Below, one piece after another: positions 5,567 through 17,030 of a stretch of DNA of 25,966 nt. The notes beneath the pieces were generated by a model. The model saw nothing but the letters and a program-made list of their open reading frames with translations, had not been told where the DNA came from and ran no database searches. Location: IMG/VR virus record IMGVR_UViG_3300034198_005278, positions 1 to 25,966 of that record. The stretch is one strand, 5' to 3'. The translations under genes and the position numbers were made by a program. Every line of letters begins with the position of its first letter. The stretch's first letter is position 1. This stretch comes from a virus.

Positions 5567-7093
5567 TTATGCCCCCAGCCATGAAGTTGAAACACCGGAT
5601 TGTCCTTGGCTACGAACAACACGTTCCTTGGGATTGTACTCTCGGTGTGCCACAGGGAAGGCAAAGGTCACGCAGATGGCGTCAGCCGCATCGGGCGATG
5701 CCAGGCCACGAGCCTTCATGTCCTTTTTGCTTTCCAAGAAAATGGTGCCCCTAGAATCTGGCTTGATCATAGGCGAAATCAGATCAGTTTTCAAGAACCG
5801 ATCTTTGGGGATGCTGGCCGTGCGCAACCACTCCTTCATCTTTCCCCACATCTCGGCGCGCTTGTTGCCGTACATGATGGGGTTGGCCGACTTGTTGCCA
5901 AAGTTCACGCCCTTGACCTTGTAACGCTGTTCTTTGAGCCGATCCACAATCCCAGCGCCTAGGCCACCCTCATCAATCACCACCAGGGCCGGCTTGAATT
6001 CCTCAATAGCTTCAATGATGTGGCCAACAACCGTCATTGTGTCGTCGCCTCGGTGCCGGTCAATCCTCACAATGTCTCGGCCCTGGCGCACGGCAATCAC
6101 CGTCGCATCAGCGCCAAAACGCGCAGGGTCCACACCAATGATGATTGGGGCTGTCTGGTCTTTGTACTTTGACCGGTCCATTGCTTCATCCACAATGTTT
6201 GCCGGGATGAACTGGTCATCGCCTTCAGACGGGAACTGGCCATACACCTCAACGTGCGCCTGCGCGCTGTCCGGGCCGTACTCATCAATTATGTTTTGGT
6301 ACACAGCCTTGTCGGTGCCTTCCACCGTACGGGCGTCCACCACCTTGTTGGTCCAAAAGTCGCGCTTGCTGTTAAAGCATTCGTAAAAGTAGCCAGTATT
6401 GCGGCGGGGGTTGGAAAATGCCATCCATAGACGGTTCGGGGTGTTTTCGGTAAAGAAACCAGCCGTTACCGCCCAGATGGCATCATCAATACCGCTGGCC
6501 TCATCAAAAATCACCATCACGCCATCGTGATTGTGAACGCCGGCGTAAGAATCAGGGTTTTCTGCCGACCACAGCCGGCCCTCAACGGCCCAGTACCTGG
6601 TGCCCTTTTTGAGGTCTTTTTCAATCAGCTCGGTAAGCCAGTTGGCGGGGGCTACCTTGGTGGCCGACACCTCAAACCAATGGCTGTTAATGCTCATGGC
6701 CAACCACTTGGTAATCTCGGCCCATGTGACCGCTCGGAGCTGGGCTTCGCTGTTGGCTGAGATGATGGTCGTTGATCCTATCCTGGTGGACAGCATCCAG
6801 ATCGTAAGCCAAGACACCAAGGCAGACTTGCCAATACCTCGGCCAGAACTTACCGCATGGCGCAGGGTTTCAAAGTCAATCAGCCCCTTTTGGCGCTTGA
6901 TGTGCGAGGTGATCTCACGCAAGACCTCGCGCTGCCACTTGCGTGGACCCTTAAAGTTGGCCAGCGGCGTGTTCTCCTGGCCCCACGGGAATGCAAACAA
7001 CACAAACGCCTCTGGATCATCAGCAATGGCCGGCGACCACAGCGTGGCCATCAGTTCCTGTTCGTCTTCGGGCTTGTAGATTGTGGTTTGCAT
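5567..7093 (-). CDS. terL: Terminase large subunit (packaging ATPase and nuclease)
   Basis: This 508-residue protein drives DNA translocation into the procapsid and cuts the concatemer. The ATPase half shows a Walker A-type loop (SSGRGIGKSA, residues 82-91) and Walker B (VMVIFDEAS, 192-200), with the catalytic Glu after the Asp. The RNase H-like nuclease half shows GVDPARFGAD (D322), VVIDEGGLG (D374/E375) and SPDAADA (D468, D471). The length and motif order fit large terminases of podophages. Its ATG overlaps the stop of the ADP-ribosyltransferase-like gene (TAATG). The small subunit gene lies further upstream across a non-coding region rather than adjacent, which is unusual. Confidence 0.95.
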   Translation of the reverse strand: MQTTIYKPEDEQELMATLWSPAIADDPEAFVLFAFPWGQENTPLANFKGPRKWQREVLREITSHIKRQKGLIDFETLRHAVSSGRGIGKSALVSWLTIWMLSTRIGSTTIISANSEAQLRAVTWAEITKWLAMSINSHWFEVSATKVAPANWLTELIEKDLKKGTRYWAVEGRLWSAENPDSYAGVHNHDGVMVIFDEASGIDDAIWAVTAGFFTENTPNRLWMAFSNPRRNTGYFYECFNSKRDFWTNKVVDARTVEGTDKAVYQNIIDEYGPDSAQAHVEVYGQFPSEGDDQFIPANIVDEAMDRSKYKDQTAPIIIGVDPARFGADATVIAVRQGRDIVRIDRHRGDDTMTVVGHIIEAIEEFKPALVVIDEGGLGAGIVDRLKEQRYKVKGVNFGNKSANPIMYGNKRAEMWGKMKEWLRTASIPKDRFLKTDLISPMIKPDSRGTIFLESKKDMKARGLASPDAADAICVTFAFPVAHREYNPKERVVRSQGQSGVSTSWLGA

Positions 7094-8544
7094 TAACGAT
7101 TTGAACGCAGTTGGTTGCGCGGTTTCTCTTCAGCCAGCAGGTCGGGGGCGGCTACCCCCATTGCGGCAGCAATAGCGGCGTTTCTTCGCCAAGGATCAAA
7201 GGCGGCAAAACGGGAACGAATGTTATCTGGATTAGGAACAACAAATGATAAACCACCAAATTCTTCGTCTGAAACTTTTGTCGTACCCAAAAGTTTTCCT
7301 TGTTTTTTTATTTTTCTTTCTAAATTATCTAACGATTTAGAACTATATTGTGGATTTGTTATTAACAATGGATATGAAACATCAGAATTCATTTGTTTTG
7401 ACAAATCTTTTTCAGAAGTCCAAACGCCAGATTTAGCAAGTCTTTCAGCCCATTTACTGTCAGTATTTCTTGCAGTATTTTCACCCAATTTTGTTATGTC
7501 AAAATTGGCAATATCTACTGCATCAGTTGCGTGAAATGCGGGTGTATTAAATCCCATCGCCACAGCCCTTTGATCTGCCGTATTGTTCGCCGGCAATCCA
7601 AGCCCACCCTGCTCAACAGGCAATGCAGCACGTTGTTGCGCCAGACGCAAGGCTTCATCTTGAGGTCCAACAACACCAGACATTTGCGGGTGATAGCCAA
7701 ATTCATGGATCGAATCTGCATTCGTCCAAAGGTCTTTCGCCTTAACTTTTTGGCTCAAAATTTTGTAATCACCTTTGAGTGCAGATTCGCCATGAGTTTT
7801 AGCGTAATCCTTACTCAACGTCACCCAATCACCAGGGTTGATGCCAGAAATTTTCTCATCTTTGGGAACTGCGCGATACATCAAAACTTCCGCATTAGGA
7901 TTGCCTCGTACACGATGAGCCAAAGCAAATGCCTCTTTGTCTGCTATTGGAAAACCAGTTCCGTAATACTGCGCTGCCTTTGCCGAATAAACATCAGCAG
8001 GATACATCTGGCCACCGCCCGTCAAATCATGCAACGGCGCGCCAAAATCAGGACCAGGCGCTGTATGACCTGCTCGATACTCAGCAGGATTCAGGAAATT
8101 CATCCCGCCAACAGCCTCTGTGGACATCCCAACCGGCATACCTTTGGTGGCAAATGCCGCCTGCCTGGCCAACCTTGCCGCTTGCAATGCCTCCATCGGC
8201 GTGATCGGTACTGCCGATCCAAGGTTTGATGCGGCCTGTTGCGCCGGACCCTGCGGTGCCAAGGGCAGGCGTTGAAGCAAATCCTGAGTGCCATACGGCA
8301 CCTGCGGTTGCTGGTCATAACTCACATCGCCAAATGCCTCCATCGGCATCGGTGTGCGCAACAGGTTCATCAGGTCCGAAGGGATGCCAGCCGTTGCGGC
8401 GGCTCTGCCTCGCAAGAACTGAACCGGCATATCCAGCGCGGCCTGCGGGTCTTGCACCGTTCGGTTGCGGCGAAGGTGCGGGAAATACCCAAACGCCGCT
8501 CCTAGCGCGTTCTGGCTGTCTGGTGCTAGGCTGTTAATCGGCAT
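7093..8544 (-). CDS. Protein with two ADP-ribosyltransferase-like domains, 483 aa
   Basis: The first 200 residues are low in recognisable features, with an Ala/Gln-rich helical part near 95-135. A first ART-like domain spans about 185-300: MYRAVPKDE (R224), GDWVTLSKDYAKTHGE (S244), and EFGYHP (E281) give an Arg-Ser-Glu-type triad. A second spans about 335-452: AFHATDA (H338), a DITKLGENTA segment, SGVWTS, and PNPDNIRSRFAAFDPWRR. Both patterns resemble phage ART-like domains described in polyvalent proteins (Iyer and colleagues). Such proteins may be co-injected and modify host targets by transferring ADP-ribose from NAD, but activity is not shown. It sits between the small and large terminase genes, and its stop overlaps the terL start. 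Confidence 0.7.
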   Translation of the reverse strand: MPINSLAPDSQNALGAAFGYFPHLRRNRTVQDPQAALDMPVQFLRGRAAATAGIPSDLMNLLRTPMPMEAFGDVSYDQQPQVPYGTQDLLQRLPLAPQGPAQQAASNLGSAVPITPMEALQAARLARQAAFATKGMPVGMSTEAVGGMNFLNPAEYRAGHTAPGPDFGAPLHDLTGGGQMYPADVYSAKAAQYYGTGFPIADKEAFALAHRVRGNPNAEVLMYRAVPKDEKISGINPGDWVTLSKDYAKTHGESALKGDYKILSQKVKAKDLWTNADSIHEFGYHPQMSGVVGPQDEALRLAQQRAALPVEQGGLGLPANNTADQRAVAMGFNTPAFHATDAVDIANFDITKLGENTARNTDSKWAERLAKSGVWTSEKDLSKQMNSDVSYPLLITNPQYSSKSLDNLERKIKKQGKLLGTTKVSDEEFGGLSFVVPNPDNIRSRFAAFDPWRRNAAIAAAMGVAAPDLLAEEKPRNQLRSNR

Positions 8545-8902: not shown

Positions 8903-9415
8903 TCACGCCTCTTTTGCCTGCACATCAACGATGTTGCTTTCATCGGTAAGCACACGCTGCTTTGCCTCCTTCAAGGCATCCATGACGCTAATGCGTGTAT
9001 CCGTCACCGACACATCAATGCGGTCGCCATACATCTTTGGCTTGAGCTTTGACGCAATCCATTTGCGCGCATCAACCTGCATCCGCTTTTGTTGAACCCA
9101 AGCCGATGCGGCAGGTCCTTCAAGGTAAGCTGGCATCTCCTCATCAGCCAACTCCAAAATCTCCTCGGCCAGGCGGTCGGCTCGATTCTCAATGGCTCGC
9201 TCATACATCCCGCGAAACTCTGGATTGCTTTTAAGCATATTCATCACCGCCTGGTACGACGGCATACCCTGGCCCTTGAGCGCGGTATACAGGCTCTTAC
9301 CCTGAGACATCTGCTCCGTCATCTCAACCCAGCACGGATTGTCAATCCCAAAAACTGTGGGCCGTCCACGTCCACGCTTTACCTCAACCACCGGCTGATC
9401 CAAGTTATTGCTCAC
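8903..9415 (-). CDS. terS: Terminase small subunit, 170 aa, GTG start
   Basis: The protein recognises phage DNA and recruits the large subunit for packaging. The sequence has an N-terminal helix-turn-helix-like region (GKSLYTALKGQGMPSYQAV followed by LKSNPEFRGMYERAIENRAD) and a long helical segment with VQQKRMQVDARKWIASKLKP, then KMYGD. This is the pattern of phage terminase small subunits that feed P22-like packaging motors. I place the start at the GTG at 9415 because GAGGAG lies 8 nt upstream. The frame can be extended to a TTG at 9430, but that would put the ribosome site inside the gene. The large subunit follows only after a 358-bp gap and the ART-domain gene. Confidence 0.85.
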   Translation of the reverse strand: MSNNLDQPVVEVKRGRGRPTVFGIDNPCWVEMTEQMSQGKSLYTALKGQGMPSYQAVMNMLKSNPEFRGMYERAIENRADRLAEEILELADEEMPAYLEGPAASAWVQQKRMQVDARKWIASKLKPKMYGDRIDVSVTDTRISVMDALKEAKQRVLTDESNIVDVQAKEA

Positions 9416-9501
9416 TTGTAAACTCCTCAAAAAGAAAAGGTACTCACGCCAGGTGGCGCTTTCCCTTCAAAATGCGGCAACTGCAAAATCCCCGCACACG
9501 A

Positions 9502-9849
9502 TCATCCTATCACCTCAATCTCAACCCGGTAAACCTTTGGGCCATCGACTCGTTGCTTGTACTGCCAATCCACCAGTTGGTGCCCATCATCCACACCAAG
9601 CCAGTCAGCCACCCCATCCCTCACCGCCTTAAACCCCGACTGCAAATTATCCCCATCCAAACGCCTTGGAGCCACCCTGGTAAGCACAACAGTCACCGGC
9701 AGGGCATTGATACCACCAAACCGTGCAACGGCCTCCAAAGCCCGTTTTGCCTTTTCTCGCTGACTCTTTGTCAACCTCGCCTTTGCCGCCCAATGCAACC
9801 TCATGTTGGCCACCGACACGATTTTCATGTCAATTTCCACTTCAATCAT
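9502..9849 (-). CDS. RusA-family Holliday junction resolvase-like endonuclease
   Basis: RusA enzymes cut four-way DNA junctions as dimers and are common in phages, where they resolve replication or recombination intermediates before packaging. This 115-residue protein has the family's length and acidic cluster: RRLDGDNLQSGFKAVRDGV places D65, D67, N68 and D78, and LGVDDGHQLVDW supplies D87 and D88. An early conserved stretch (NMRLHWAAKARLTK) precedes it. It lies downstream of the primase/helicase across the repeat array and upstream of terS, in the same orientation. Assignment is by motif; catalytic residues look intact. Confidence 0.78.
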   Translation of the reverse strand: MIEVEIDMKIVSVANMRLHWAAKARLTKSQREKAKRALEAVARFGGINALPVTVVLTRVAPRRLDGDNLQSGFKAVRDGVADWLGVDDGHQLVDWQYKQRVDGPKVYRVEIEVIG

Positions 9850-9880
9850 TCCACCCCCCCAACATCAAACTTTTCCCCAA

Positions 9881-10080
9881 ACCCGAACCGAACCGAGCCG
9901 AAACAGTTTACGAGCCGAAACCGAATGGGTATATATACCCTTTCGGTAAGTTTCGGTTCGAAAAACCGACTGTTTGGACCGGCGACTTCGGTAAGTTTCG
10001 GTAAGTTTCGGTTAATTCGGTTCATAGTTTCGGTTCAGCCGAATCAGCCGATTCGGTTACCGATTCGGTAAGTTTCGGTT
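9881..10080. repeat. Inverted array of CCGAA/TTCGG iterons around a TATA-centred palindrome
   Basis: On the plus strand the left part (9881-9925) carries repeated CCGAA units, and the right part (9942-10080) carries repeated TTCGG units. The unit TTCGGTAAGTTTCGGT appears at 9942-9957, twice overlapping in 9987-10012 and again at 10064-10079. The centre is an exact 14-bp palindrome, GGGTATATATACCC (9927-9940), which extends to 9920-9947 with one mismatched pair. An outer inverted pair, AAACAGT (9901-9907) and ACTGTTT (9969-9975), encloses it. A further small inverted repeat (CCGAATC/GATTCGG) lies near 10039-10056. Iterons flanking an AT-rich palindrome next to a primase/helicase gene suggest a replication origin or operator array. 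Confidence 0.85.
9920..9947. other. 28-bp imperfect palindrome with TATA core
   Basis: ACCGAA-T-GGGTATATATACCC-T-TTCGGT reads the same on both strands apart from one T/T pair (9926/9941). The 8-bp alternating TA core would melt or extrude easily. As RNA it would form a strong hairpin with an A/U top and no following U-run on either strand, so it does not look like an ordinary intrinsic terminator. Confidence 0.8.
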
Positions 10081-12112
10081 CACTGCCGATGTCCATATTC
10101 GGCCTTGTTCGGTAGCCCCTTGAATCCTCAATAACCAAAGACTTTTTGACCAAACTGTCCACAACTTCCCTAAACCGATTGGATTTGATGCCATGCTCTT
10201 TGGCCGATTCCCGCCACTCGTCGTAGGTCACCAGATCAATAATGTTGTTCTTTTCATGGCTAATTTGAATGGCCACCAAACAGTCCAGCGTCTTTCTCTG
10301 GTTGCCGGCGAGATAGGTTTTCTTCTGGATTGAGTTGGTCAGTCCACTAATGTCCACCGCCGTCAGGTATGCGCCCTTGACCGCATTGCCATGTTTGTCC
10401 TTGATTGGCAGGTCAACCTGGGTGATCTGAAAGTTCTTGGGTGCCGGCATCTCGGCATCCTTCATCTTCTTGGACTCAAAGGCAATGGTCTTGGTGCCTG
10501 AGTCCAACTGGCATCTGTACTCAGCATCCAGCGCGCCCTTGAGTGCCGTTGAACCCCGACTACGATCCTTGTCAGCCACGCCTGAGTGGTGAACCACTAC
10601 CACGCAGCACCGATATGGCTTCCTCAAGTAGGTGTCCAGGTGCTGGATGAAGGCATTCATGTCCTGGGTGCTGTTCTCGTCGCCCCCATAATTCCTGGCC
10701 AAGGTGTCAATCACGATCAGGCTGGGTGTAGTCCCCGACTGCTGGCACAATTCTTTGATGGACTCAGCCACAACCGCCGCCTCGGTGGCGTCATACAACT
10801 GAGCCGCTCTGTGGCTTTTATACAACGGTGCGCCGTTCAATGTAGCCCCATTTCCCAGCTCCCAGCCCTTGAACCGCCGAGCCAAACCGTTATGGCCCTC
10901 ACCCGCAATAAAGAATACGGCACCCTGCTTTACCTCATGCCCGTGCCATGCCCTGCCAGTGGCCACACAACAGGCCAGGTCAATGCTGACGAACGATTTA
11001 CCGCCGCCTGGGTCGCCAAACACCTGTGCCAGTGAGTCGCTCTCAATATAGTCATCCACGATCCAATTGATTTCCGATAGCTCTAAACTATCAACCCGTG
11101 AGAACTCAAAGGCCAGTTTGTCTTTCAATGGCCCGGCCACCCTCTCGATTTGTTCTTTGACCGCATCCAACCCTTGCAGGCAGTGCAGGTCGTTGAAGTC
11201 AGTTGGCTTGTTGTCAACCATGTCAGAATCGCCAAATTGTGGGTACACGATCTCGCCAAACACCAGTGCCGCAGCCGCTCTGCCCTTGGTAACGCCAGGG
11301 TTGCCTTCTGTAAACTGATCGTTGTCAGCGCCAATAATAATTTTGGCACCAGGAAACATCTCTTTGGCGCTCTTGGCCACCTTGGCCAGGTTGCCGCAAT
11401 CAAACGCCACCATCACAGTGTAGCCTGTTGCCTCATGGATCGACGCGCAGGTGGCAAACCCCTCACCCACAAACACAATCTTACGATTCCCGCGTAGCTC
11501 AAAGAATCCACCCTCAATCTTGCCGCCCTTCAAGAACCGCTTGTTGCCATCCGCATCAATGGTTTGGTATGACAGAATTTCACCTGCCTGGTCGATCACA
11601 GGCACCACCAGCCGCCCAGCCCGGTCAATCTTGATCCCGTGAGCGCCAATGTGCTTTCTCACCAAGTATGGGTGGTCATCGCTCGCATCAGCATAAGTCC
11701 CGACCTCGTCCTCCGCACGCTCTGCGGCCACCGCTTGGGATGCCAGCCGATCAGCATCCTTTTTGGCTCTTACCTCTGACAGCCACTTGTCATGTTCAAA
11801 CCGCTCGGTAAACGACATTACTCGGCCAGTATCTGCCACCCACTTGGACTCAAACACCGGCTCCTTCCAGCACCCAGCAATCCCAACCGGCACCTTGCCG
11901 CTGGCGTGCAGTATGTACCACCCATCCAACGCCCCCTTTTTGCTGGAGATATGTGGCACCCGGTGTATCTCACCATCAGCCACGACCTGATCCTTTATCA
12001 GCAAGCCAGCCGCCTCACAATGACGCCTGAATGATTCTTCAGGCTTGATCAGGTCCTGGCTCTCAGTCGCTGCCGCAAACCCGTTGGGAAAAATAGATGT
12101 AATTGATGTCAT
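10022..12112 (-). CDS. TOPRIM primase / RecA-fold helicase, 696 aa
   Basis: This is a fused replication protein. Residues about 160-310 form a TOPRIM-type primase core with VFVGEGFATC (E217) and IIIGADND (D263, D265). Residues about 345-545 form a RepA-like/AAA_25 helicase core: Walker A GDPGGGKS (366-373), FIAGEGHNGL, Walker B LIVIDTLARN (465-474) and HHSGVADKDRSRGSTALKGA (508 onward). It probably unwinds and primes phage DNA at the fork. No N-terminal CHC2 zinc finger is visible. The start overlaps the regulator's stop as ATGA. Oddly, the last 20 residues (two EPKL and two TES units) are encoded by the iteron array that continues downstream of the gene. Confidence 0.88.
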   Translation of the reverse strand: MTSITSIFPNGFAAATESQDLIKPEESFRRHCEAAGLLIKDQVVADGEIHRVPHISSKKGALDGWYILHASGKVPVGIAGCWKEPVFESKWVADTGRVMSFTERFEHDKWLSEVRAKKDADRLASQAVAAERAEDEVGTYADASDDHPYLVRKHIGAHGIKIDRAGRLVVPVIDQAGEILSYQTIDADGNKRFLKGGKIEGGFFELRGNRKIVFVGEGFATCASIHEATGYTVMVAFDCGNLAKVAKSAKEMFPGAKIIIGADNDQFTEGNPGVTKGRAAAALVFGEIVYPQFGDSDMVDNKPTDFNDLHCLQGLDAVKEQIERVAGPLKDKLAFEFSRVDSLELSEINWIVDDYIESDSLAQVFGDPGGGKSFVSIDLACCVATGRAWHGHEVKQGAVFFIAGEGHNGLARRFKGWELGNGATLNGAPLYKSHRAAQLYDATEAAVVAESIKELCQQSGTTPSLIVIDTLARNYGGDENSTQDMNAFIQHLDTYLRKPYRCCVVVVHHSGVADKDRSRGSTALKGALDAEYRCQLDSGTKTIAFESKKMKDAEMPAPKNFQITQVDLPIKDKHGNAVKGAYLTAVDISGLTNSIQKKTYLAGNQRKTLDCLVAIQISHEKNNIIDLVTYDEWRESAKEHGIKSNRFREVVDSLVKKSLVIEDSRGYRTRPNMDIGSEPKLTESVTESADSAEPKL

Positions 12113-15333: not shown

Positions 15334-17030
15334 TCTTGCGCGACTATCAGTCCCGCTCGGTCACCGACTTGTTTGATTGGTGGACTAAACACCAGGGCGA
15401 CGCCGACATCCCATTGCTGGTGTTGCCTACCGCCGCAGGCAAGTCAGTGATCTGTGCCGAGGTCGTGCGCCAGATGTGGCACGAGTGGCCAGAATTCCAC
15501 CCGCGCACGGTGGTTCTGGTCCCATCCAAAGAGTTGGCCGAGCAAAATGCGGCCAAGCTCCGCGCGCTACTGCCCCATACCATCAGTGTGGGGTTTGTCA
15601 GCGCCAGTTTGGGCACCAAGAGGTACAACGCTGATGTCATTGTTGCCACCATTGGCAGCATCCACAAGGCCGCACACCTGCTTGGAAACATCAAGGCGGT
15701 GATTATTGATGAGGCTCACCTAGTGAGCCAGCACGCCGGCGATTCTGGGATGTACCGCACATTTTTGTCCAAGTTGGGTGAACTGTGCCAATTCAGGACC
15801 GTGGGCATGACGGCCACGCCTTTTCGCGGCAATCAGGTCTGGCTGACTGACGGCGATGATCCGCTGTTCACCGGCATCGCCAGCCGGGTATCCATGCGTG
15901 AATTGCTGGACGCCAAATACATAGCACCGTTAGTGCCGCCGACCGAGCGAATTGAAACCCGGATCGACGCTAGTCATGTCGGCATCAGCAATGGCGATTA
16001 TAAGGTTGGCGAACTTTCACGAGAGGTTGAAAAATACCTTGCCAAAGTGGCTGTGGAGGCCACCAAAATGGCCGCACAGCGCAAGAAATGGATTGCCTTC
16101 ACACCGAGTGTAGAAAACGCCGAAAGCCTGTCTGAGCGCTTTAATTCGCTTGGCATTGTCAGCGCGGTGGTTTGCGGTGAAACCCCGAAGCAAGAACGTG
16201 AAGACCTGATTCGACAGTTTAAGAACCATCAGATTCACTGCCTGGTTACAGTTCTGGCATTGTCGGTCGGGTTTGATGTGCCCGATGTGGACTGCATTAT
16301 CTGGTGCCGACCGACCAAGTCGCCGGTGCTATATGTGCAAGGTATGGGACGAGGCACTCGTATTTCAGACGGCAAGGTTGATTGTCTAGTGTTGGATTTT
16401 ACCGACACTGTGGAGCGCCTGGGGCCGGTGGACACAATCCAAGGTCGAGCCAAGAAAAAGTCGGGCAAAGAAGAAGCCCCGTACAGCATTTGCCCAGATT
16501 GTGGCGAACGCAACCTGCCGACCGCTTTGGTATGCGTTCATTGTGGTGGGACGATCCGCGATGAAGAGGTTAAGGCATTAGATGCCAAGGTGTCGTACGC
16601 GGCATTGCTGTCTAGTCAAACCACAGTCGCCGAGCTGGTGTGGCATGACATCAGCCGCGTGGACTACAAGTTGCATCGCAAGCCTGGCAAGCCTGACTCC
16701 ATGCGCGTGGACTACTTCACCGGCCTTTTGCGGGTGGCCAGCGAATGGGTGTGCTTTGATCACACTGGCTACGCCAGGCAGAAAGCCGAGCAGTGGTGGC
16801 AACTTCGGTCCACAAAAACAGTACCCGAAACCACCTACATTGCGCTGGACTTTTTGGGCGTTGATGTGATCAACGAGCCAAGTCGAATTGCAACTCAAAA
16901 AAATGGAAAATACATAGAGGTCAAACACCATGAATTTAATCGAACTCAACGCCATCAAGGGTCATTTGGTCAGCCAGGTGAAACAGATCAATTCAATAGA
17001 AGTGAATTGCCTGCACTGCAACAATTTTGA
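15330..17030 (+). CDS. SF2 DEAD/DEAH-box helicase with zinc ribbon, 566 aa
   Basis: The ATPase and helicase lobes are complete: PTAAGKS (33-39), VLVPSKELAEQ (motif Ia), IIDEAH (125-130), MTATPFRG (160-167), a CLVTVLALSVGFDVPDVD segment (304-321) and YVQGMGRGTR (335-344). A zinc ribbon follows with C388-x2-C391 and C402-x2-C405. The family includes RecG/UvsW-like and RadD-like enzymes that remodel forks or recombination intermediates. The zinc ribbon after the helicase core resembles RadD. The final 34 residues are encoded in a stretch that also encodes the next gene in another frame, and look unlike the rest of the protein. Confidence 0.9.
   Translation: MILRDYQSRSVTDLFDWWTKHQGDADIPLLVLPTAAGKSVICAEVVRQMWHEWPEFHPRTVVLVPSKELAEQNAAKLRALLPHTISVGFVSASLGTKRYNADVIVATIGSIHKAAHLLGNIKAVIIDEAHLVSQHAGDSGMYRTFLSKLGELCQFRTVGMTATPFRGNQVWLTDGDDPLFTGIASRVSMRELLDAKYIAPLVPPTERIETRIDASHVGISNGDYKVGELSREVEKYLAKVAVEATKMAAQRKKWIAFTPSVENAESLSERFNSLGIVSAVVCGETPKQEREDLIRQFKNHQIHCLVTVLALSVGFDVPDVDCIIWCRPTKSPVLYVQGMGRGTRISDGKVDCLVLDFTDTVERLGPVDTIQGRAKKKSGKEEAPYSICPDCGERNLPTALVCVHCGGTIRDEEVKALDAKVSYAALLSSQTTVAELVWHDISRVDYKLHRKPGKPDSMRVDYFTGLLRVASEWVCFDHTGYARQKAEQWWQLRSTKTVPETTYIALDFLGVDVINEPSRIATQKNGKYIEVKHHEFNRTQRHQGSFGQPGETDQFNRSELPALQQF

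Follow-up and report, generated by a model that had tools for sequence, protein, structure and literature searches.

We describe a dense iteron array, centred on a short hairpin, that very probably represents the replication origin of a phage and that would be bound by the C-terminal winged helix of the adjacent primase-helicase itself. The array lies in a viral DNA stretch of 25,966 nucleotides (the window, meaning the whole stretch that was analyzed). A first-pass annotation of the window had already suggested a possible origin bound by the neighbouring primase-helicase or another phage protein, and our comparison with relatives supports an origin with the primase-helicase as its binder: the element keeps a constant place, its iteron word is tracked by the winged helix only, and array and domain have been swapped jointly. 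Conserved position, co-variation of iterons and domain, matched swapping, paired changes in the hairpin stem, and the domain architecture of the protein were all read from sequence. In this way both an origin and its probable reader domain could be located in many phages, a large group in which the start of replication is apparently undescribed; a limited search of the open-access literature found no earlier description of such an origin.

The iteron array and its place beside the primase-helicase gene

The features of the window are as follows.

8903-9430, minus strand: small terminase gene (TerS), ~450 bp beyond the array
9502-9849, minus strand: RusA-like Holliday junction resolvase gene, commonly but not always the next gene downstream, with no tracking of the iteron word
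9883-10112, no strand assigned: whole iteron array, 18 units (12 TTCGG and 6 CCGAA, plus-strand reading)
9901-9907, minus strand: 3' arm of the outer stem, ACTGTTT on the gene strand (AAACAGT on the plus strand)
9915-9925, minus strand: inverted iterons next to the hairpin on its 3' side, TTCGGTTTCGG on the gene strand
9927-9940, minus strand: central hairpin, an exact 14-bp palindrome GGGTATATATACCC with an A/T-rich centre; the stem covaries among relatives
9941-9957, minus strand: two iterons next to the hairpin on its 5' side, spaced 10 bp apart, ACCGAAACTTACCGAAA on the gene strand
9969-9975, minus strand: 5' arm of the outer stem, AAACAGT on the gene strand (ACTGTTT on the plus strand)
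10022-12112, minus strand: primase-helicase gene, 696 aa, with Toprim (residues ~213-314), RepA/RecA-like helicase (~332-590) and winged-helix (~598-672) domains
10097-10321, minus strand: C-terminal winged-helix domain (residues ~598-672), the proposed iteron reader, in which residues 642-645 (IKSN) track the iteron word

The array is not a product of chance. This is because one 200-bp interval holds 16 CCGAA or TTCGG units, while no such interval outside the array holds more than three, and because the counts of TTTCGGT and TTCGGT exceeded those in all 100 dinucleotide shuffles. Many of the units are spaced 10 bp apart, about one helical turn. Exactly four copies of the 16-mer TTCGGTAAGTTTCGGT were found, at 9942, 9987, 9997, and 10064, and these, the 14-bp palindrome and the AAACAGT/ACTGTTT pair are all present as first annotated. 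The two arms described in that annotation do exist; however, they are unequal (12 TTCGG versus 6 CCGAA units) and one CCGAA unit, at 10039, sits in the right arm. The array had also been placed beside the primase-helicase gene, which it does adjoin, but since it extends to ~10112 its right part is inside the 3' end of that gene, where it forms the last codons and encodes a low-confidence tail (SEPKLTESVTESADSAEPKL). A reading of the array as a mere coding repeat was dropped, as most of it in the window is outside the coding frame. Separately, in three relatives (L072, L076, and L080) the array was seen by eye to lie partly within an extra small open frame starting MTMPETARIDVPMYRNG, with iterons reading as codons.

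The minus strand carries, in order, a Cro-like gene, the primase-helicase gene, the RusA-like gene and the small terminase gene, and the plus strand encodes Sak4, a single-strand binding protein, a Cas4-like exonuclease and a helicase. Toprim domain and C-terminal winged helix are part of one polypeptide in the primase-helicase, whose helicase part matches AAA_25 and is closest to RSF1010 RepA, both by sequence profile (E 2.7e-10, the only match) and by fold (Z 21.8). The winged helix was modelled with a pLDDT of ~85 in a full-length AlphaFold model made with an alignment, and the isolated C-terminal segment, modelled without one, had a pLDDT of 43. No named structural neighbour is available for the winged helix because the fold searches covered mainly the helicase part. 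Elsewhere in the window, among structural and packaging genes, a 483-aa protein (7093-8544, minus strand) matched PHROG 2579, "ParB C-terminal domain" (E 1e-34).

An element of this type follows the primase-helicase gene in 73 of 80 non-redundant loci, down to ~30% protein identity. The densest repeat of the 3-12 kb locus begins between -250 and +150 bp from the primase-helicase stop codon in 66 of these loci, and in 7 more it is located behind an inserted gene. A clear array near the gene was not found in 7 of the 80, and none was seen in L088 (30% identity). Among the close relatives (80 loci), nearly all have a CCGAA-type array at the same place, and L028, L078, and L083 have a CGTCCGGA array in place of it. 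Relatives with the gene but without CCGAA repeats, a case that the first-pass annotation had set against its own reading, carry a different repeat there instead. That annotation had also considered the array unusually dense for a phage of this plan, which does not hold, as relatives of the same plan have equally dense arrays at the same place.

In L027, L032, L038, L065, and L067, inserted genes separate the array from the primase-helicase gene. By eye, differing insertions were identified exactly between gene and array in these five loci and in L028 and L078 (inserted-gene loci: ~650-1500 bp after the primase-helicase stop), and the L078 insert resembles a DNA methyltransferase. More distantly, phages CGphi29, PB15, and 1N2-2 (32% identity) share the gene plan and have other iteron words and a hairpin in the gap after the primase-helicase gene; no DNA similarity to named phages was found. 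The element is also present in phage-like contigs from bacterial assemblies. Across lineages the plan of the array, iterons followed by an A/T-centred hairpin and inverted iterons, is constant and the iteron word differs. The neighbours vary (RusA, a MazG-like gene in 1N2-2, others, and the inserted genes), and the element stays with the primase-helicase gene.

A search of viral contigs with the 16-mer gave a similar picture, in that every contig with at least three copies either has the primase gene or breaks off at the array. Five contigs had a single copy, none of them with a detectable primase; one (L273) contains RusA and stops directly behind the match, and the other four, with neither primase nor RusA, look like chance matches. 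The GC skew of the window has no sign change at the array and turns with gene direction. In the full genomes of PB15 (L259) and CGphi29 (L260), the minimum of the cumulative GC skew is at the divergent Cro/Sak4 border (22456 and 5037, respectively), ~2 kb off the array. GC skew is uninformative about the origin since it turns where gene direction turns.

Several observations were made elsewhere in these loci. In L163, L172, and L173 the opposite flank of the primase-helicase gene, ~3.2-4.1 kb upstream of its stop, has a dense CCGTAGC repeat (11-15 copies per 300 bp), and a second cluster, of AAGCGAG (7 copies per 300 bp) lies near 15380 in CGphi29 (NC_020844), far from the replication genes. 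Twelve contigs (L007, L008, L011, L012, L014, L034, L041, L043, L055, L058, L059, and L062) end ~70-500 bp upstream of the primase-helicase start, and these positions could be genome ends, a variable region or assembly breaks.

Iteron word and winged-helix domain

In all ~110 loci the class of the helix-turn-helix (HTH), defined by residues 642-645 in the turn and the start of the recognition helix, matches the iteron word as follows.

HTH xN[AS]R: iteron GTACCGAA
HTH IKSN: iteron ACCGAAAC
HTH V[KA]NN or IANN: iteron CATCCG[AG]A
HTH LDYR: iteron GCACCGAA
HTH VARN: iteron CGTCCGGA
HTH LDRH: iteron GTGAGAAA

Co-variation was measured as the mutual information of each protein column with iteron class. 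The best 22 columns are all in residues 598-672, where the best score was 0.78-0.80, compared to 0.39-0.48 in residues 1-589. In the other proteins, each scored over the loci that hold it, the best columns reached 0.34 (Cro), 0.38 (RusA), 0.46 (TerS), and 0.38 (Sak4). Part of the association may be plain linkage, because domain and array are contiguous in most loci. However, the loci with inserted genes and the weaker signal of RusA, which is a good control because it sits just beyond the array, argue against linkage alone.

Trees of the two parts of the protein differ greatly in the number of iteron class changes that they imply. On the tree of residues 1-585 (N-terminal) 17-18 changes were counted, versus 4, the minimum possible, on the tree of residues 592-672 (the C-terminal domain), and for the GTACCGAA class 10-11 changes are already required by the starred, well-supported N-terminal branches. 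As these were quick trees with many weak forks, the exact counts are rough; the contrast between the N-terminal and C-terminal trees is not. It follows from this contrast that a cassette of ~600 bp, comprising winged helix and array, has been repeatedly swapped as a matched pair between backbones that are ~90% identical. Pairs of loci show the borders of such exchanges: in L019/L047, L022/L061, and L011/L033, for example, identity is ~90% up to about nucleotide 1700 of the gene, 40-65% over winged helix and array, and 83-98% in the next gene. The proteins of L027 and L028 are 99% identical over 585 residues, and yet L027 has LNAR with GTACCGAA and L028 has VARN with CGTCCGGA. Overall, co-variation and swapping both indicate that the iteron sequence is matched to the C-terminal domain of the primase-helicase.

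The six natural pairs of iteron and winged helix, five of them within closely similar proteins, amount to a matched lock-and-key set. They make an initiator recognition code directly testable by swaps of domain and array.

The central hairpin and alternative readings

A stem-loop just 3' of the primase-helicase gene is conserved in relatives, and an A/T-centred hairpin is present in the array region of 70 of the 80 loci. Such hairpins are ~7 times denser in the array regions (133 in 36 kb, a number that includes hairpins formed by the iterons themselves) than elsewhere in the same loci (319 in 610 kb). Among 57 close relatives, 8 of the 10 pairs of the inner stem have changed on both sides, 89% of inner stem cells are paired (16-51% for slid partners), and changes on both sides were counted in 118 cells versus 38.7 in shuffles. 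The outer stem AAACAGT/ACTGTTT is likewise exchanged for other complementary pairs in relatives. As MAFFT had offset it by one column between groups, the outer stem was judged by a separate and weaker test, in which its own mean complementary run was 6.3 and that of cross-paired arms 4.8, a signal that comes partly from iteron letters within the compared segments.

The centre of the hairpin is TATA, TACA, TTATA or TTTA in relatives, and on the gene strand of more distant relatives TTTA and TTATA are frequent loop sequences; ten hairpins have a TTTA loop and none has its reverse complement TAAA. The GGGTATATATACCC stem word was found with five iteron classes, and the GTACCGAA class with seven different central words. 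The stem does not appear to carry sequence specificity, since its word is independent of iteron class. The palindrome had been described in the first pass as an easily melted AT core, and the centre is indeed A/T-rich, but a more apt description is a conserved hairpin or palindrome that keeps its symmetry and not its sequence.

Selection for the hairpin is likely rather than proven, as template-switch mutation could also yield paired changes. The paired stem changes would then be a by-product of template switching and the palindrome only an A/T-rich core within the origin, a qualification of the origin reading that we consider unlikely. Changes on both sides with almost no intermediates are what correction of a quasi-palindrome would leave; on the other hand, A/T-centred hairpins recur at this place in phages with unrelated iterons and stems, are concentrated here relative to the rest of the same loci, and are accompanied by an outer stem that also changes in pairs. 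The co-varying stems, and a loop whose asymmetry in distant relatives (TTTA/TTATA, gene strand) suggests that a single strand may be read, would also suit a transcript that crosses the gene border and acts as a terminator, antiterminator or mRNA element, and a promoter/terminator scan listed the palindrome as a weak terminator-like site. Even so, we regard a structured RNA as very improbable, given that the hairpin in the window lacks a genuine T run behind it, that Rfam gave no match, that G-U pairs, which RNA stems usually tolerate, are nearly absent among the stem changes (7 of 547 cells), and that the many iterons tracking a DNA-binding domain would be left unexplained. Iterons and a hairpin with a conserved loop also resemble double-strand origins of rolling-circle replication, a mode formerly suggested for pRN1 (reported in PMC4234260). 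We give hardly any credence to a nick site of this kind, as domain searches of the replication-region genes found no HUH-type replication endonuclease and the protein that tracks the iterons is a primase-helicase.

Arrays of this type can also be operators, and in most relatives the array is upstream of RusA and late genes, so that the primase-helicase or another phage regulator might control its own gene or the RusA/terminase operon from it, with no origin function. This appears improbable: the array is not at the promoter of the gene for the protein that tracks the iterons but at the 3' end of that gene, the scan found no sigma-70-like promoter at 9300-10500, the downstream gene varies while the element stays, and Cro does not track the iteron word. 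The proximity of TerS, and the fact that repeats with a palindrome can act as packaging sites, might alternatively point to a pac or cos site read by the small terminase. We consider that exceedingly improbable, because TerS tracks the iteron word no better than unrelated genes do (0.46; the winged helix reached 0.79 in these loci) and is located ~6 kb from the array in PB15 and ~1.7 kb from it in CGphi29. An attachment site was dropped as a candidate, given the free variation of the stem sequence and the fact that no integrase was seen.

Proposed mechanism and comparison with known systems

A replication origin bound by the primase-helicase is the reading that we favour, and from the features above we infer binding, melting, priming, origin activity and replication direction. 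The primase-helicase would bind the iterons via its own C-terminal winged helix, and several subunits would probably line up in helical phase on each side of the palindrome. The A/T-centred palindrome, which can form a hairpin or cruciform, would then be opened by wrapping or supercoiling, and the hexameric helicase and the primase would be loaded there and make the first primers. The combination of RepA-like helicase, Toprim primase and winged helix suggests that a single protein may find, open and prime the origin, acting as initiator, helicase and primase in one. More tentatively, and we would not count on it, the hairpin may be a strand-specific priming or loading site read by the primase-helicase through its structure, protein and ~230-bp site may be self-sufficient, and satellites, decoy origins or origin-directed nucleases, for example, may select new specificities in these phages and so cause the iteron-reading domain to be exchanged rapidly. 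What selects for changed origin specificity is a question that these data raise.

Single aspects of the element are familiar from other replicons. In none of the compared systems, as far as we know, do a protein with Toprim, RepA-like and winged-helix parts, short iterons in helical spacing, a hairpin that covaries and repeated exchange of matched pairs occur together. In P4, the alpha protein has a helicase of the SF3 type, and we know of no conserved hairpin in the P4 origin; the protein described here has an AAA_25, RepA/RecA-like helicase and no SF3 domain. The likeness lies in the make-up of a single protein: alpha, too, has a Toprim-type primase, a helicase and, at its C terminus, a winged helix, which binds repeats in the origin (described in PMC4234260).

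In plasmid pRN1, a stem-loop 3' of the primase-helicase gene is required for replication, and a similar stem-loop is present in phage BIP-1 (PMC4234260). Those systems share with ours a stem-loop directly after a primase-helicase gene that ends in a winged helix, and low sequence but high structural conservation. However, their proteins combine an archaeo-eukaryotic primase with an SF3 helicase and origin iterons were not found there, whereas Toprim and RepA-like helicase domains, many iterons and a smaller hairpin are found here. The oriV of RSF1010 has iterons and hairpins used for priming (PMC4234260). It resembles our element in having iterons with a hairpin and, by domain homology only, a RepA-like hexameric helicase, but RSF1010 uses separate RepA, RepB', and RepC proteins and a different primase in place of the single 696-aa polypeptide.

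Exchange of replication modules is known from lambdoid phages, as lambda and Stx phages have different replication modules (PMC7466680) and the rep region of lambda has been replaced by that of P22 (PMC3349717). There too the origin iterons are in or at the initiator gene and the modules differ between phages. Lambdoid O, in contrast, acts as a stand-alone initiator and brings in the helicase of the host by way of P, whereas our primase-helicase unites parts for binding, helicase and primase activity, and a conserved hairpin is present in addition. In the PLE satellites of Vibrio cholerae, the DNA-binding domain of RepA and the origin are matched, swapped modules, as shown by origin-swap experiments (PMC8263062). 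In PLE as in our phages, the DNA-binding domain of the initiator co-varies with the origin iterons and is exchanged with them as a module. The PLE RepA has an N-terminal RepA_N domain, iterons of ~30 bp that are semi-palindromic and a noncoding origin, whereas here the domain is C-terminal on a primase-helicase, the iterons are ~10 bp, and the array overlaps the 3' end of its own gene around a hairpin. Matched exchange of origin specificity, established experimentally in PLE satellites, is thus frequent in phages too, with at least 10 changes forced by the well-supported branches.
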